A program made the position numbers and the translations under genes. 64,000 nucleotides of DNA from Marinobacter sp. es.042 (GTDB taxonomy: Bacteria; Pseudomonadota; Gammaproteobacteria; Pseudomonadales; Oleiphilaceae): assembly GCF_900188315.1 (NCBI RefSeq), contig NZ_LT897781.1, positions 2,232,001 through 2,296,000 of the forward strand, given 5' to 3'. This document shows positions 15,693 through 37,635 of this stretch, piece by piece. The notes under the pieces are model-generated. The model did no database searches, was not told the DNA's origin, and saw only the letters and a program-made list of their open reading frames with translations. Position 1 is the stretch's first letter. The number at the start of each line of letters is the position of its first letter.

Positions 15693-17096
15693 ATGACACA
15701 ACTGGTCTGGTTCCGAAACGATCTCCGGGTTGCCGACAACCCCGCCCTCACAGCCGCCTGCGAAAGCAGCGAAGAGGTGCGAGCCTGTTTTATTCTCACC
15801 CCGGACCAATGGCAGGAACACGATTGGTCGCCGGCCCGGGTGCAATTCGTAGTCGCCCACGCCAACGCCCTGGCCGAAGAGCTCGCCAAACTGGGTATAC
15901 CGCTGTCATTTATGCACGCAAAACGCTTCGACGACAGCCTTCGCAAACTCGAGAGCCACTGCGAAGAGCACGGGGTGACAGCGCTGCACTTCAACGAGGA
16001 GTACGGCGTCAACGAGCGCAAACGCGACAAGACGTTGAAACACCGCTTTGATGAACTCGGCATTGCCGTTCGCAAATACCGCGACCAGACAGTTGCACCA
16101 GTAGGGGAGATCCTCACCCAACAGAATGACCCCTACTCCGTGTTCACACCGTTTTCGAGACGCTGGCGCAGCTGGATAGAAGAAACCCATCCGGGTCTTT
16201 TTTCAACGCCCAAAGCCAGGGGCAACGCCGTAAGCCCGGAACAGATTGACACCATACCCGAAGCCTTTCGAGACGCCCCCGAACCCCTCGTTGCAACCGG
16301 TGAAGATGCCGCCCACGACCAGCTCGAGCGCTTCCTCGAAAAACGCGGCGCCGCGTACAAGGAAAAGCGTGACTTCCCCGCCATCGATGGCACCAGCCAG
16401 ATATCCCCTTACCTCGCCAATGGTGTTCTCTCTGGCCGGCAATGCCTGATAGCCGGCCGACAGGCGCAGGGCGCCGGCGGCAACCAGGAAGGCCTGGGAA
16501 CCTGGATCACCGAAATCGCCTGGCGGGATTTCTACATCAACATCCTCTACCACTTTCCCAGAGTGAGCATGCACCGCGCCTTCAAGCCGGAAACCGAAGC
16601 CCTTGAATGGAACACCCCGGGTGACAGGTTTGAAGCCTGGAAAACCGGCAACACCGGCGTCCCCATCGTCGACGCCGCCATGCGCCAACTCAACCAGACC
16701 GGCTGGATGCACAACCGCCTACGCATGATCACCGCCATGTATCTCACCAAAAACCTGTTCATTGACTGGCGCCTGGGCGAAGCCTACTTCATGTCAAAAC
16801 TGATCGACGGCTTCCTGGCCTCAAACAACGGCGGCTGGCAATGGAGCGCCTCCACCGGCACCGACGCCGCTCCCTACTTCCGGGTCTTTAACCCGGTCAC
16901 CCAGAGCGAACGTTTCGACCCCAAAGGCGACTTTATCCGGGAGTGGATTCCTGAACTGGCCAAACTGGACAGCAAACGGATTCATGATCCGGGGGCGAAA
17001 GGTGGTGTTATTCCGAAAGGATATCCAAGGCAGATCGTTGATCTGAAAGAGAGCAGGAAAGAGGCGATCGCAAAATTTCAGGAATTGAAAAACTGA
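15693..17096 (+). CDS. phrB: Deoxyribodipyrimidine photolyase (class I CPD photolyase)
   Basis: A 467-residue flavoprotein that repairs UV-made cyclobutane pyrimidine dimers with blue light. The N-terminal Rossmann-like antenna domain (1-130) opens TQLVWFRNDLRVADNPAL. The FAD domain (about 200-465) shows SQISPYLANGVLSGRQ, ITEIAWRDFYINILYHFP, GVPIVDAAMRQLNQTGWMHN and NNGGWQWSASTGTDAAPYF, all hallmarks of class I photolyases rather than DASH cryptochromes. Length matches E. coli PhrB (472). The gene is divergent from the mscS/rimK unit and is followed by the large inverted repeat at 17133-17246. The start ATG 15693 fits the family N-terminus directly. Confidence 0.95.
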   Translation: MTQLVWFRNDLRVADNPALTAACESSEEVRACFILTPDQWQEHDWSPARVQFVVAHANALAEELAKLGIPLSFMHAKRFDDSLRKLESHCEEHGVTALHFNEEYGVNERKRDKTLKHRFDELGIAVRKYRDQTVAPVGEILTQQNDPYSVFTPFSRRWRSWIEETHPGLFSTPKARGNAVSPEQIDTIPEAFRDAPEPLVATGEDAAHDQLERFLEKRGAAYKEKRDFPAIDGTSQISPYLANGVLSGRQCLIAGRQAQGAGGNQEGLGTWITEIAWRDFYINILYHFPRVSMHRAFKPETEALEWNTPGDRFEAWKTGNTGVPIVDAAMRQLNQTGWMHNRLRMITAMYLTKNLFIDWRLGEAYFMSKLIDGFLASNNGGWQWSASTGTDAAPYFRVFNPVTQSERFDPKGDFIREWIPELAKLDSKRIHDPGAKGGVIPKGYPRQIVDLKESRKEAIAKFQELKN

Positions 17097-17132: not shown

Positions 17133-17246
17133 GCAGTGCCGGGGATGGCCTTCCCAAAACTGTGCGGAGCCATGGATGGCGGAGCCCAAGCGCCACAGGG
17201 ATGTGCCGCAAGGAGCGTGTTTTGGGAAGGCCATCCCCGGCACTGC
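17133..17246 (+). repeat. NGGA-hairpin element, copy 1 (28-bp inverted arms)
   Basis: Perfect 28-bp inverted arms (17133-17160 and 17219-17246) enclose 58 bases with two small hairpins. The first is GCCATGGATGGC (17169-17180, loop TGGA) and the second CACAGGGATGTG (17194-17205, loop GGGA). The stretch ACAGGGATGT (17195-17204) matches the core of the CsrA binding consensus. The element lies 36 bases after the photolyase stop, in its sense orientation, in the convergent gap before moeB. A second copy of the same design, with different but still complementary arms, is at 36729-36838. It may act as a 3' structure or bidirectional stop signal; no T-tract is present. Confidence 0.85.
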
Positions 17247-17280: not shown

Positions 17281-18027
17281 TCAGCCAGAACAGACCGGGC
17301 AATCAGGGTCCCGAGCCAGCTTCATCTCCCGCCACTGCATCTCCCAGGCATCCAGAATCAGCAAGCGCCCCACCAGAGGCGAGCCAACCCCGGAAATCAC
17401 CTTGATGGCCTCCATGGCCTGAGTCGCCCCGATCATCCCGACCAGAGGCGCAATCACGCCCGCCTCGGAGCAGGTCAGATCCTCATTGCCCTGCTCCGGA
17501 TACAGACAGTGGTAGCAGGGGCTGTCCTCCCGCCGGCTGTCGTAAACCGAAACCTGCCCCTCGCCCCGAATGGCCGCACCGGACACCAGCGGAACTCTCG
17601 ACGCCACACAGGCACGGTTCAGCGCAAACCGGGTGTTGAAGTTATCCGTGCAATCCACCACCAGGGTTGCCTCCGCGACCGTCCGCGTTAGAGCCTCACC
17701 TTCGAGGCGCTGATTCAGGGCGGTAACGGACACCAGCGGGTTGATCCGACGAATCCGATCGGCAAGGCTTTCCGCTTTCGATTCACCCAGCTGCGCGGTT
17801 TCAAAACCAATCTGACGCTGGAGATTGGCCAATTCGATATTATCGTCATCCACCAGGGTCAGGGTCCCGACACCTGCGGCGCCCAGATACAAAGCGACAG
17901 GACACCCCAGGCCGCCAGCACCGATCACAAGAACCCTGGCCGACTGCAGCTTTTCCTGGCCGGCAATATCGAACCGGGGCATCAGGATCTGCCGGCTGTA
18001 GCGCAATAATTCGTCGTCACTGAGCAT
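17281..18027 (-). CDS. moeB: Molybdopterin-synthase adenylyltransferase MoeB (ThiF/HesA family)
   Basis: A 248-residue E1-like enzyme that adenylates the C-terminal glycine of MoaD (or a related sulfur carrier) for molybdopterin synthesis. Seen are MLSDDELLRYSRQI, the nucleotide loop VIGAGGLGCPVALYL, LVDDDNIELANLQRQ, VDCTDNFNTR, and two zinc Cys pairs (SPCYHC and DPDCPVC). The start is placed at ATG 18027 because GGAG lies six bases upstream; ATG 18033 is also possible. It follows prmC by 14 bases in the common prfA-prmC-moeB order of gammaproteobacteria. Two Cys pairs and length exclude a truncated ThiF. Confidence 0.92.
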   Translation of the reverse strand: MLSDDELLRYSRQILMPRFDIAGQEKLQSARVLVIGAGGLGCPVALYLGAAGVGTLTLVDDDNIELANLQRQIGFETAQLGESKAESLADRIRRINPLVSVTALNQRLEGEALTRTVAEATLVVDCTDNFNTRFALNRACVASRVPLVSGAAIRGEGQVSVYDSRREDSPCYHCLYPEQGNEDLTCSEAGVIAPLVGMIGATQAMEAIKVISGVGSPLVGRLLILDAWEMQWREMKLARDPDCPVCSG

Positions 18028-18041
18028 CTGCATCTCCACTG

Positions 18042-18893
18042 TTAGGCACCCGAAGACCATTGTCCGAGTGTCATCCGATCCCGGTTGCCATAATCCTGCC
18101 GGGTCTCAACGGCTTTAAACCCGCGAGCATGAAACAACCCTGCCACGGCATCTGCCTGATCGAAACCATGCTCAACCAGAAGCCAGCCGCCTTCCACCAG
18201 CCAGTCCGGCGCCTGTCTGATAATCAGTCGCAGATCATCCAGGCCATCGCTCCCGGATACCAGGGCCGAGGCAGGTTCGAATCGAACGTCACCTTCCTCA
18301 AGGTGGCGGTCGCTAGTGGGGATATAGGGTGGATTGGAGACAATCAGATCAAACCTCTCTGGGTCCAGCCCCGAAAACCAGGAGCTCTGGACCAGGGAAA
18401 GGTTCAGGCCAAGGGCAACAGCGTTTTCACGGGCCAGCGCCACTGCCTCGGGCACGGCATCACAGGCAGATATTCGCCAACCCCCGTGCTCACTGGCGAG
18501 AGCCAGGGCAATGGCGCCCGTCCCTGTTCCCAGATCCAGCACACTGGCTTGCGGTGGTAGCGGCAAAGCAAGAGCAACTTCCACCAGGCATTCGGTATCC
18601 GGTCTTGGAATCAGAGTGGAGGCACTGACTTTCAGCGGCAGTGACCAGAATTCCTGCTGCCCCAACAAATGCGCCACAGGCCTGCCGGCCACCCGATCCT
18701 GCACCAGCCTCTCGAAAGCCTCGGCGTGAGTGTCGGTCACCTCACGCTCCGGCCAGGCCCGAAAACTGGTCCGGCTGAGCCCCGTAATGTGGCTCAGCAG
18801 CAGCTCGGCATCCAGCCTCGGCGAATCACTTTCAATTCGGCTGGATGCCTCCGTCAGAAGGGCTTCGCAGGTCAGTAAGGGTTTACTGGTCAT
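18042..18893 (-). CDS. prmC: Peptide chain release factor N5-glutamine methyltransferase
   Basis: A 283-residue SAM-dependent methyltransferase that methylates the glutamine of the GGQ motif in release factors RF1 and RF2. The N-terminal helical domain (about 1-85) is followed by the SAM fold: [18 protein letters not shown] (motif I) and the NPPY catalytic motif in [16 protein letters not shown] 18893 overlaps the last 11 bases of prfA, which encodes its substrate RF1, so the two are translated together. A 25-residue upstream extension in frame lies inside prfA and is rejected. The order prfA-prmC is the classical one. Confidence 0.95.
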
Positions 18894-34164: not shown

Positions 34165-34212
34165 GGTTTATGGCACACTCTGCACTCGTTTGAACTGGCA
34201 GAGTAGTTGTTC

Positions 34213-36714
34213 ATGAATCGTCTTCGCGCCCTGTATGACCGGCTTATTTTTCCGCATCCCGTTATTATCCTTGCGGGTTTTGGCCTCCTTCTGGCCATCG
34301 CCGCCATCAAATTCGGCGAATTCCGCCTGGATGCTTCCGCCGAATCCCTGGTACTGGAAAACGACCGTTCCCTTGAACAATACCGCCAGGTAAACCGCCG
34401 CTTCACCACCTCGGACGATTTCCTGATCGTCACCTATACCCCCGAAGGTGAACTGTTCTCCGAAGATGGGCTGGCCAGACTGGGCGCGCTGCGGGACGAA
34501 CTGCAAGGCCTGGAAGCCGTAGGTTCCACCAACAGCATCCTGAACGTACCCCTGCTCCACAGCCCGGATCTGACGCTGGATACCGTGGACAGCGAGATCA
34601 AGACCCTGGACGACCACGATGTAACGCCGGACACAGCCCGCCAGGCGCTTCTGAACAACCCGCTCTACCCCAACCTGCTGATCAGCGAAGACGGGCAAAC
34701 CACTGCCATACAGGTCAACCTGCCCACGCCGGATCGCTATTTTGAACTGCTGAGAAAGCGCAACGATCTGAGAGACAAGGTCGATGCCGGCAAAGCCTCC
34801 GAGGCCGAGTTGGCCGAACTGGAACAGGTAAAACAGGAATTCATCGACTTTACCGAAACCCTCGGGGTCGAGCGCGATGCCACCATCCGCACGGTTCGCT
34901 CCATTCTCGACACCTACCGCGACGGCGCAGACATCCACCTGGGCGGGGTGCCCATGATTGTGGCGGACATGATCCGCTTCATCGAAAACGACCTGTCGAC
35001 CTTCGGGCTTGGCGTCCTGGCGTTTCTGCTGCTCACTTTGGCCATCATTTTCCGGCAGTGGCGCTGGGTTCTGGTGCCACTGTTGTGCTGCAGCTTTACC
35101 GTCTGGCTGATGGTCGGCTTTCTGGGCTGGGCCCAGTGGCCGGTGACGGTCATCTCCTCCAACTTTATTTCCCTGCTGCTGATCATGACCCTGTCGCTCA
35201 CCATCCACCTGATCGTGCGCTACCGGGAATTCCAGCACGACGAGCCCGAGGCAAGCGCCAGAGTCACCCTGCGCAACACCGTAATGGCGATGATCAAGCC
35301 CTGCTTCTACATGGCCATCACTACCATTGTCGCCTTCGGGTCCCTTACCTTCAGCGGCATTCGCCCGGTCATCGATTTCGGCTGGATGATGACCCTCGGC
35401 CTGACCGTAGCTTTTCTCATCACCTTTATTGTTTTCCCGGCCCTGCTCACCCTGTTGCCACCACCACTGGACAGCCGGGTTACCTCTGACAGGGTGCCCT
35501 TCACCGATGCCTTTGCGCGGTTCACGGAACACTTCGGCAAGACAGTGTTGGTCGGCTCCGGCGTGATTGCGGTGCTCTGCGTGGTCGGCCTGAACAAGCT
35601 GACGGTGGAAAACAGCTTTATCGACTATTTCAAATCGTCCACCGAAATCCATCAGGGCATGATCACCATCGACAACCGCCTGGGCGGTACCACGCCCCTG
35701 GACGTGGTTATCACCGACGATCCGCCACCGGAAGGCGCGAGCGGCGGCGACCCGTTTACCAGTGACTGCGACCCGTTCGTGGAAGACTGCGGTGCTGGAG
35801 AGGAATACCGCGATACCTGGTACACCTACCAGAAAATGGAACAACTGGAAGCGGTTCACGACTACCTGGACGGATTACCGGAAACCGGCAAGGTGCTCTC
35901 GATCAACACCACGCTGGATATCCTCGCCCAAATCAACCAGGGCGAGCCTTTGGACGCCCTGGAACTGGCGTTTGTACCCGCTGCCGTTCCGGACGACCTG
36001 CAGGATACCCTGCTGACGCCTTACATCTCCGAGGAACATGACCAGGCCCGCTTCAGCATCCGGATCCTGGAAACCATGCCGGAACTTCGTCGACAGGAGC
36101 TCTTGAACCGCATCCATGAACATCTGACAACGGAACTGGGGTACTCGAAAGATCAGGTACTCTTTGCCGGCATGACGGTGATGTACAACAACATGCTGCA
36201 AAGCCTGTTCGATTCCCAGATCAAGACCATCGGCGTGGTTTTCGCTGCCATCATGGTGATGTTCCTGATCCTGTTCCGCTCGCTGAAACTGGCCCTGATC
36301 GGCATCGCCCCGAACCTCATCGCCGCCGGCTCGGTGCTCGGCCTGATGGGCTGGCTGGGCATTCCCCTGGATATGATGACCATCACGGTGGCGGCCATTA
36401 CCGTCGGCATCGCCGTGGACGACACCATACACTACATCCACCGCTTCAAAACCGAGTTCGCGAAAGATGGCGACTATATCGCAACCATGCACCGCTGCCA
36501 CCGAAGCATCGGCCAGGCCATGTTTTTCACCTCGCTGACCATCATCTCCGGGTTCTCGATACTGGTGCTCTCCAACTTCATCCCGACCATCTACTTCGGG
36601 TTGTTTACGGGGTTTGCCATGTTCATGGCTCTGGTAGGAGCACTTACCCTGTTGCCCCGGCTTATTGTCCTGGTTAAACCCTTTGGCTCTGGGGGTGAAG
36701 CTCCTTCGATATAA
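34213..36714 (+). CDS. RND/MMPL family exporter
   Basis: An 833-residue membrane protein in two repeats. TM1 is about residues 15-35, a periplasmic loop follows, then helices 2-6 (about 255-420, with the sterol-sensing-like stretch FISLLLIMTLSLTIHLIVRY), a second loop (about 455-660) and helices 8-12 to the end (GVVFAAIMVMFLILFRSL, AVDDTIHYIHRFKTEF). This fits predicted exporters of the RND superfamily that export lipids or hydrophobic compounds. The second loop carries an acidic insert with two cysteines (SDCDPFVEDCGAG). ATG 34213 is preferred over TTG 34207. No membrane-fusion partner is adjacent. The substrate is unknown. Confidence 0.88.
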   Translation: MNRLRALYDRLIFPHPVIILAGFGLLLAIAAIKFGEFRLDASAESLVLENDRSLEQYRQVNRRFTTSDDFLIVTYTPEGELFSEDGLARLGALRDELQGLEAVGSTNSILNVPLLHSPDLTLDTVDSEIKTLDDHDVTPDTARQALLNNPLYPNLLISEDGQTTAIQVNLPTPDRYFELLRKRNDLRDKVDAGKASEAELAELEQVKQEFIDFTETLGVERDATIRTVRSILDTYRDGADIHLGGVPMIVADMIRFIENDLSTFGLGVLAFLLLTLAIIFRQWRWVLVPLLCCSFTVWLMVGFLGWAQWPVTVISSNFISLLLIMTLSLTIHLIVRYREFQHDEPEASARVTLRNTVMAMIKPCFYMAITTIVAFGSLTFSGIRPVIDFGWMMTLGLTVAFLITFIVFPALLTLLPPPLDSRVTSDRVPFTDAFARFTEHFGKTVLVGSGVIAVLCVVGLNKLTVENSFIDYFKSSTEIHQGMITIDNRLGGTTPLDVVITDDPPPEGASGGDPFTSDCDPFVEDCGAGEEYRDTWYTYQKMEQLEAVHDYLDGLPETGKVLSINTTLDILAQINQGEPLDALELAFVPAAVPDDLQDTLLTPYISEEHDQARFSIRILETMPELRRQELLNRIHEHLTTELGYSKDQVLFAGMTVMYNNMLQSLFDSQIKTIGVVFAAIMVMFLILFRSLKLALIGIAPNLIAAGSVLGLMGWLGIPLDMMTITVAAITVGIAVDDTIHYIHRFKTEFAKDGDYIATMHRCHRSIGQAMFFTSLTIISGFSILVLSNFIPTIYFGLFTGFAMFMALVGALTLLPRLIVLVKPFGSGGEAPSI

Positions 36715-36728
36715 CTGTGCTGTTCAAA

Positions 36729-36838
36729 GAACAGGGGTGTGGAACCCTCCCAAAAATGTCTGTGGCCAAGGATGGCCACAGCCAAGCGCACATGGATGTG
36801 CTCGTAGCGGTTTTTGGGAGGGTTCCACACCCCTGTTC
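36729..36838 (+). repeat. NGGA-hairpin element, copy 2 (28-bp inverted arms)
   Basis: Perfect 28-bp inverted arms (36729-36756 and 36811-36838) enclose 54 bases with two hairpins: TGTGGCCA-AGGA-TGGCCACA (36761-36780) and GCACA-TGGA-TGTGC (36788-36801). ACATGGATGT at 36790-36799 is one base off the CsrA core. As in copy 1 an AAGCG linker lies between the hairpins and AGCG follows the second. It begins 14 bases after the exporter stop, in its sense orientation, before the convergent Spy-like gene. The arms differ from copy 1 except at their inner ends (CTCCCAAAAA against CTTCCCAAAAC). Confidence 0.85.
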
Positions 36839-36866
36839 CTGCTCTCCACCCCGCAGGCTACAGACA

Positions 36867-36900
36867 TAAAAAAAGGGCCACACCAAAAGATGCGGCCCTT
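36867..36900 (-). terminator. Intrinsic terminator of the Spy-like gene
   Basis: On the minus strand the stem AAGGGCC / GGCCCTT, extended by GCATC/GTGT pairs, is followed by seven T. It lies 28 bases after the stop of the Spy-like gene. Confidence 0.85.
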
Positions 36901-36928: not shown

Positions 36929-37393
36929 TTACTGCATGCCCTGACCTTGCCCCTGCTGCATCTGTTGTTGCATCTGACGACGCTGCTGCATTTGCTGTTG
37001 CATCTGCTGCATACGCTTGTCCAGCTCGTCGCGCTGCTCCTGGGTAAACACGCTGTCGACCTTCGCCTGCATCAGAGTGGACAGAGCCGCGATCTCGCCG
37101 GTCACATCGCCCAGCTCTTTGGCCTGCTCGCGAATAGCGGCTTCATCAAAGTCTGATTTGATCTCACCTTGCATCTGCTGCTGCAGCGCACGGGCTTCCT
37201 GACGGAGTTCACCGATTTCGCCCTGCATCTCGTCGATGATGGCACGGATTTCAGTTTGCTGATCTTCGGTCAGCCCCACCATCTGTGCCAGTTGATCCAC
37301 CTGATCCGGCTGGCCACTGGATTGCTGGGCCATGGCCGGGACCGAAAGGCTGAGGGCTACCAGGGCAGTACCGAACAGTTTTACAAGCTTCAT
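36929..37393 (-). CDS. Spy/CpxP-like periplasmic protein with Gln/Met-rich tail
   Basis: A 154-residue exported protein. The signal peptide is MKLVKLFGTALVALSLSVPAMA, cleaved near AMA-QQ. The mature part is helical and shows the LTxxQ signature (VGLTEDQQTEIRAIID) and a second one (VFTQEQRDELDKRM), as in Spy and CpxP proteins that act as periplasmic chaperones or sensors of envelope stress. The last 27 residues consist almost only of Gln, Met, Gly and Arg. ATG 37393 starts the signal peptide; a 20-residue upstream extension is rejected. It converges with the exporter gene across the NGGA element. The Met/Gln tail could bind metal ions, an inference. Confidence 0.8.
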   Translation of the reverse strand: MKLVKLFGTALVALSLSVPAMAQQSSGQPDQVDQLAQMVGLTEDQQTEIRAIIDEMQGEIGELRQEARALQQQMQGEIKSDFDEAAIREQAKELGDVTGEIAALSTLMQAKVDSVFTQEQRDELDKRMQQMQQQMQQRRQMQQQMQQGQGQGMQ

Positions 37394-37635
37394 AAATGTC
37401 TCCGATAAGGGGGTGGCCACAATCTGAATGCCACCGACATACATTGGTTTCATCGTTCAGGGACTACACCCTAAAACATACGCATACGGTTTTTCACCCC
37501 GATCAGCCCTCTTTTTGTACATACTTCTCAGTATCCCGGGCCAAAAGCCGCCACACACGGGGATTCAAACAAATGTGAAAGTTTGGTCATTCCCCTTCAT
37601 AATGGCGCCGTTTAACCACATCCGGAGCAGACAAG

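Follow-up and report, generated by a model that had tools for sequence, protein, structure and literature searches.

A dispersed two-loop hairpin element of Marinobacter that resembles TwoAYGGAY and YPAL repeats and carries candidate CsrA-docking loops

The usual binding motif of CsrA is A(N)GGA (PMC5864184) and, CsrA being a dimer, GGA hairpin loops come in pairs (PMC4333381). In TwoAYGGAY (Rfam RF01731, in clan CL00106 shared with CsrC) the CsrA motif is matched twice, there are tandem GAs and conservation of the external stem is poor; Gardner and colleagues predicted that CsrA binds this candidate (PMC4333381), which was considered to be probably an RNA and probably not cis-regulatory (Weinberg, 2010). 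YPAL repeats, like the model of their family, are about 168 bp long (PMC2267715); they have been described as mobile, with target duplications of 3-26 bp and empty and filled sites, and as thought to influence the stability of upstream transcripts (PMC2229807). RU-2 repeats also occur in Erwinia carotovora, now Pectobacterium (PMC2759123), and the REP elements (GTAG/CGTC families) are dispersed extragenic palindromes found predominantly downstream of genes (PMC3733652). In our literature search, which had most subscription journals outside its range, no paper joined YPAL to TwoAYGGAY, CsrA, Ysr224 or Marinobacter; in four YPAL papers neither CsrA nor TwoAYGGAY occurs in the main text, and a fifth does not mention CsrA. 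Nothing relevant was found on Marinobacter REPs by title or abstract, and no work on intergenic repeats in the genera concerned was retrieved.

The window, a 64,000-nt stretch of the genome of Marinobacter sp. es.042 (hereafter G000), holds at 36729-36838 an inverted repeat whose 28-bp arms match perfectly and enclose a 54-nt core, in which two hairpins present loops of the form ANGGAY with the starts of their GGAs 24 nt apart (Table 1). An earlier note had described arms of 28 bp, a linker AAGCG, two loops of the form NGGA and an AGCG ahead of the right arm, all of which are present, and had placed this element and a second one in the window, copy 1, in convergent gaps, as is indeed the case for both. 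Folded as RNA, 36715-36880 reaches -87.6 kcal/mol compared with -54.35 ± 4.55 for 200 shuffles (z = -7.31), and the four other inverted repeats of at least 20 nt in the window with arms within 400 bp are just 74-77% complementary. A covariance model (R1) built from an alignment (A1) of 109 non-redundant copies of one length class (157 of 283) gave a score of 116.4 bits to the element and 83.8 bits to copy 1. Since this model recognises 81 copies in the genome, the element is not a product of chance. At gathering thresholds, Rfam reported three tRNAs only in the whole window; microRNA hits, all below their cut-offs, were read as artefacts of long hairpins.

Table 1. Features of the element, of copy 1 and of copies with a longer hairpin 2 (window positions unless a genome or locus is named)
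Feature	Position	Strand	Description
Left arm	36729-36756	+	28 nt; outer part site-specific, inner part CCCAAAAA
Core	36757-36810	+	54 nt; near identical in many copies
Hairpin 1	36760-36781	+	CTGTGGCCA-AGGA-TGGCCACAG; ANGGAY loop at 36768-36773
Hairpin 2	36786-36803	+	around GCACA-TGGA-TGTGC; ANGGAY loop at 36792-36797
Right arm	36811-36838	+	28 nt; exact reverse complement of the left arm
Right-flank motif CAGGCTAC	36854-36861	+	
ORF upstream of the element	34207-36714	+	stop codon to left arm, 14 nt
ORF facing the element	36929-37453	-	right arm to its stop codon, 90 nt
Copy 1	17133-17246	+	layout as in the element; belongs to the subfamily whose hairpin 1 has GGA/GGA purine mismatches
Arms of copy 1	17133-17160 and 17219-17246		28 nt, 100% complementary, 58 nt between them
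ORFs flanking copy 1	15693-17096 and 17281-18060	+ and -	convergent
Copies with an extra stretch in hairpin 2	L068, L111; G009:C1 near 280987; G056:C1 near 1797014; G000:C1 near 558527		

With TwoAYGGAY the element has in common two A-N-GGA-Y hairpins, purine mismatches in one stem, an outer stem of poorly conserved sequence and the presence of multiple copies, often in (-,+) pairs, in other genera. The strict AYGGAY loop, however, is not followed, as the first loop of the element reads AAGGAT and the second ATGGAT, and the variable position is often G or A over 298 copies. In G000, with 150 of 202 candidates scored, the RF01731 model had 28 matches at E ≤ 10, the best at 4.8e-5 and 13 below 0.01, each of the 13 spanning model positions 1-168; 22 of the 28 overlap BLAST copies of the element and the other six are in the R1 list. 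None of the 28 exceeded the gathering cut-off of 43 bits, the best reaching 41.4 bits and copy 1 (2249128-2249251) 35.7 bits (9.4e-4), and the element at 36729-36838 itself was not reported at E ≤ 10; nor was locus L007. As a control, one of 14 named genomes matched at E ≤ 10 and none over the cut-off. With permissive filters on six loci, L148 scored 45.2 bits (cut-off 43) despite being missed by Rfam's own fast filters, L154 scored 38.3 and the Marinobacter locus L063 scored 28.6, the other three being unreported. At the stricter setting used across the class, 16 of 185 genomes matched RF01731 at E ≤ 0.01, ten of them over the cut-off and often in multiple copies, and G000 showed two hits. 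Among the matches listed, close RF01731 pairs were six (-,+), one (+,-) and one (+,+). In the reverse comparison, R1 gave strong matches to two of ten RF01731 loci (L397 and L401), weak ones to four (L394, L398, L399 and L392) and none to the remaining four; R1 thus recognises just part of the RF01731 loci, which makes RF01731 broader than the element.

The core of RU-2 (PMC2759123), AAGCGTC-CGCGCCAAGGATGGCGCG-GCTCGAGC-CTACATGGATGTA-TTTACGGCGT, when compared by eye, is the same as that of the element, with two ANGGAY loops whose GGAs are 24 nt apart. R1, which contains no Pectobacterium rows, matched all seven Pectobacterium loci given to it at 56-69 bits, out of 19 retrieved by a core pattern. 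YPAL differs in length, its roughly 168 bp comparing with 110-114 nt from arm to arm here, with site-specific arms. Ysr224 (RF02770) matches two of the Pectobacterium copies at 73.3 and 90.2 bits but names the opposite strand and pairs the arms otherwise, and gives the element 16.7 bits against a cut-off of 70. REP elements are alike by description, being dispersed extragenic palindromes mostly 3' of genes, but are only 20-40 bp long. On these comparisons the element appears to be a relative of RF01731 below its threshold, with a core common to YPAL/RU-2 and, on the opposite strand, to Ysr224. Used as a query (E ≤ 0.001), the element had matches in 56 of the 60 further genomes searched in the genus and in none of 36 from other genera of the order. 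A core pattern matched five of 369 genomes of the class, G000 included, and its reversed control matched none. A related pattern occurred, among the matches listed, in Marinobacter, Pectobacterium, Microbulbifer, Zobellella, Vreelandella, Halospina, Idiomarina, Pseudomonas and others.

Some copies extend beyond this layout. Right flanks carry a C-rich and then an A-rich stretch; a subset also has AGGCTA, at a nearly constant distance from the right arm, so that the element probably reaches past its arms on that side. Of 295 copies, 53 have [AC]AGGCTA 12-18 nt past the right arm and 55 have it anywhere within 80 nt, compared with six in the left flank; the right-flank motif is likely to be a 3' extension of one subfamily. 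A larger form, found at different sites and in different species, carries additional sequence, rich in hairpins and similar from copy to copy, at the loop of hairpin 2, several examples with GTGAGGCCGAGCG, and in these nested copies the simple second loop is lost; they are either a larger subfamily or the product of a repeat that targets that loop.

BLAST searches with the element and copy 1 retrieved dozens of places in the genome, and R1 recognised 81 copies at E ≤ 0.01, 80 with values below 1e-11 and the remaining one with 0.0017. This number covers the copies that R1 recognises and is a minimum, given that R1 was partly built on G000 copies and 150 of 1756 candidates were scored. Placement was called in G000 with a home-made codon-scored gene caller, with background gaps taken from one 400-kb region. 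None of the 81 copies lies inside a called gene, in a genome whose 400-kb sample is 89% coding; a cruder ORF caller used earlier had put eight of 62 elements 'inside' ORFs. The 3' end of a gene adjoins 66 of the 81 copies, at a median distance of 33.5 nt and within 100 nt in 60 of them. By comparison of copies, the element sits between genes and mostly just after a stop codon, a position in which De Gregorio in 2006 reportedly found YPALs too. Neither an exclusively convergent setting nor one fixed orientation was borne out: 26 copies are in convergent, 40 in tandem and 15 in divergent gaps, and in tandem gaps the GGA strand is sense in 20 cases and antisense in 20. Convergent gaps are nevertheless enriched, since they make up 17 of 171 background gaps of at least 60 nt, the others being 112 tandem and 42 divergent.

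With 20 antisense and 15 divergent copies, 35 of the 81 have no adjacent upstream gene that reads the GGA strand. A run of T directly follows the right arm in none of 294 copies (three of 294 on the other strand), and a simple scan of the flanks for sigma-70-like promoters found no enrichment; the element is thus not an obvious free-standing sRNA gene, and we rejected that candidate. Copies show no preference for a replication strand (37 of 81 on one strand, with the origin placed at dnaA). All ten close pairs of copies in G000 face outward (-,+). A second repeat, GTAGGTCGGRTTA...TAAYCCGACCTAC, was seen between some paired copies (G000:C1:442476) and in the left flanks of some copies. A tenth of the chromosome, G000:C1:360000-760000, holds 27 of the 81 copies.

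The earlier note had inferred covariation of the arms from two non-orthologous copies. That inference was too strong on such a basis, as the two arms of a long palindrome can change together through template switching, yet the covariation itself proved real. In the 109 arm-diverse copies, 93.1% of cells are paired compared with 61.6% after shuffling and 38-46% after sliding; in the arms the figure is 97.3%, all 28 arm pairs show change on both sides, and over the whole structure 38 of 43 pairs do. Hairpin 1 is looser, at 78.6% paired, with purine mismatches in mid-stem. At orthologous sites the sequence of the arms differs and their pairing persists: 65 of 76 ortholog pairs were kept (11 with left-arm identity below 0.6 were dropped), drawn from four genomes compared pairwise and hence not independent, and showed 252 coincident changes compared with 83.4 expected if the arms changed independently; 235 positions switched one Watson-Crick pair for another on both sides. 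Single changes relative to a Watson-Crick pair gave G.T 79 times, A.C eight times and other mispairs 37 times. With one pair retained per G000 site (19 sites), 55 co-changes remained, with single changes of 23, 2 and 12, respectively. By this comparison the closing stem is kept through its pairing and not through its sequence. There were 25 adjacent co-changes compared with a shuffled mean of 14.9 and maximum of 26 (1000 shuffles), and, neighbouring positions thus co-changing slightly more often than in shuffles, template switching may account for some of the covariation.

The mispairs identify the strand that folds. Read on the GGA strand and with equal penalties for G.T and A.C, the arms of 298 distinct copies (of 367 element records, orthologs included) contain 7802 Watson-Crick pairs, 187 G.T, 17 A.C and 97 other mispairs (GA/AG 49, GG 31, TT 8, TC/CT 5, AA 3 and CC 1); counted as distinct events, G.T outnumbers A.C by 179 to 16. 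The excess does not depend on whether an upstream gene reads the GGA strand, the G.T to A.C counts in the 79 of 81 G000 copies scored being 20:0 in sense, 12:0 in antisense, 14:3 in convergent and 11:1 in divergent contexts. Right flanks are richer in A (0.297) and C (0.299) than in G (0.227) and T (0.176), left flanks being nearly even, so the excess is not explained by regional drift. In a cruciform both strands are folded and a G.T on either is an A.C on the other, which gives no reason to expect an excess of G.T; the cruciform offered by the earlier note alongside a folded RNA was rejected on the count of 187 G.T to 17 A.C, with which a single folded strand agrees. Hairpins of single-stranded DNA also tolerate G.T better than A.C, and the test consequently picks the strand and not RNA over single-stranded DNA. 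Comparison among copies shows the selected object to be one folded strand, the GGA-looped one, in the form of a three-way junction with a long closing stem and two hairpins. A purely mutational origin, in which template switching copies one arm onto the other without any selection, would account for adjacent co-changes; it predicts equal numbers of G.T and A.C, however, where 187 and 17 are seen, and the right flank is rich in A and C rather than G and T; the conservation of the loops and of their spacing also speaks against it. It is already disfavoured and we consider it very improbable.

The loops are the second conserved property. A scan of four 400-kb regions for long inverted repeats, in which GGA was not required, returned 89, of which 81 carry two ANGGA[CT] on one strand, one is the element with one loop ending in A and seven are unrelated; GGA is present in both loops in 82 of 82 elements. 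In G000, 78 of 79 scored copies have at least two ANGGA in the core and the other has one. As the 298 copies were chosen for two A-N-GGA, conservation of GGA was judged from the unbiased scan and the G000 copies; in the 298, the variable base is T in 169, G in 73, A in 50 and C in 6 for hairpin 1, and T in 143, G in 137, C in 14 and A in 4 for hairpin 2. Of 283 copies, 271 have a distance of 23 or 24 nt between the starts of the two GGAs. An unrelated long inverted repeat whose spacer measures 44-47 nt (GCCGGCGGTGGGGTGGGGGTATCTTTTTC...) was seen at G000:C1:524114, with counterparts in genomes G023 and G009. These properties bear on another reading, namely that the element is a plain 3'-end hairpin, a terminator or mRNA stabiliser, with incidental loops. 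Its proximity to gene 3' ends, its enrichment in convergent gaps and the proposed effect of YPAL on transcripts are what such a hairpin would explain; the invariant GGA in both loops, the rigid spacing and the lack of T-runs are not, and a hairpin that would serve either strand does not account for strand-asymmetric mispairs. This reading appears improbable to us.

The CsrA SELEX consensus and the structure of the RsmE-bound loop are the background against which ANGGA loops are recognised as CsrA/RsmA sites, and the paired ANGGA loops on the folded strand look like such sites. G000 has one csrA gene. Sequestering sRNAs of the CsrB/RsmZ type likewise carry several ANGGA hairpin loops, but the element has two in each of many dispersed copies; of the features of a CsrA-sequestering RNA, paired ANGGA loops are present, while an own promoter and an intrinsic terminator were not found by simple sigma-70 and T-run scans.

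The history of the sites was followed by searching those of the element and of copy 1 in 61 genomes of the genus, with junctions read in 30 loci per site (two of the 30 at the element's site were without one flank), and by a synteny comparison of 62 element records in four genomes. Where arms are homologous the core subfamily can differ (for example, G000 564265 and G009 284559), a pattern suggestive of gene conversion acting on the cores. Several sites that lack the element retain a stub or one arm together with short direct repeats: the G056 counterpart of G000 560780 is empty, with a direct repeat GGGG and a hairpin stub, as are the G023 and G009 counterparts of G000 500924, with a direct repeat GAGC and a hairpin stub. 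Were these repeats target duplications, the retained flank would be complementary to the supposed insert, and the deletion reading is preferred; we read the clearest empty sites as probable deletions at short direct repeats that left a hairpin stub. Insertion into ready-made palindromes or terminators, hinted at by the unique arms, was unsupported in the comparison of four genomes, as the stubs look like deletion scars and the arms of a given site co-change. Of the 30 loci read for the site of copy 1, three from other Marinobacter (L109, L110 and L117) have the element in the opposite orientation to its flanking genes compared with the other genomes, as if it had flipped within its own arms.

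The main rival reading is that of a miniature selfish mobile element, in which an enzyme would recognise the folded GGA strand by its shape, as single-stranded DNA or an RNA intermediate, in the manner of attC or of IS200/IS605 ends, with the loops as recognition features. The number and clustering of copies, the consistently outward-facing pairs, the differing cores within homologous arms and the mobility described for YPAL all agree with this, as do a G.T excess that is independent of gene context and the tolerance of G.T in single-stranded DNA. Against it stand the deletion reading of the clearest empty sites, the lack of a replication-strand bias and the long-kept sites with compensatory change, which suggest more than passage; in four 400-kb regions no clean new insertion was seen, although copies present in one genome only exist (G056 1698538). 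We regard this reading as possible but rather unlikely.

The best explanation, to which we give an even chance, is that the element is a dispersed hairpin of the TwoAYGGAY/YPAL kind whose GGA strand acts as an RNA, its two loops docking one CsrA/RsmA dimer. We infer that this strand would exist as RNA through read-through from neighbouring genes or from unmapped promoters, and that the transcript would fold into the three-way junction with two ANGGAY loops, a putative docking platform for a single dimer. Each copy would mark or stabilise a transcript end, and the copies together would hold part of the cell's CsrA and thereby buffer it. Counted against this explanation are a G.T excess that is the same in kind whatever the gene context, flanks without sigma-70-like promoter enrichment or T-runs, the misses of RF01731, the nested copies without a simple second loop and the naming of the other strand by Ysr224, and the absence of an orientation preference in tandem gaps counts against transcription from the adjacent upstream gene in the 35 copies noted above. 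CsrA docking and mobility as a folded single strand may both be true.

More tentatively, and with the odds against it in our view, TwoAYGGAY, YPAL and Ysr224 could all belong to a single superfamily of the Gammaproteobacteria, in which an RNA module, mobile or propagated by gene conversion, brings docking sites for CsrA dimers to gene ends. The roughly 80 copies here (about 160 loops) would then be a distributed CsrA sponge, its cores kept by gene conversion while the closing stems drift by compensatory change, and free CsrA would depend on read-through transcription across the genome. The comparison connects TwoAYGGAY, a candidate RNA known mainly through computational work, with YPAL, which has been described as a miniature insertion sequence, and it names the folding strand and a concrete candidate binding partner, CsrA. 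If CsrA binds, repeats scattered over the genome would have a place in a global regulatory circuit.
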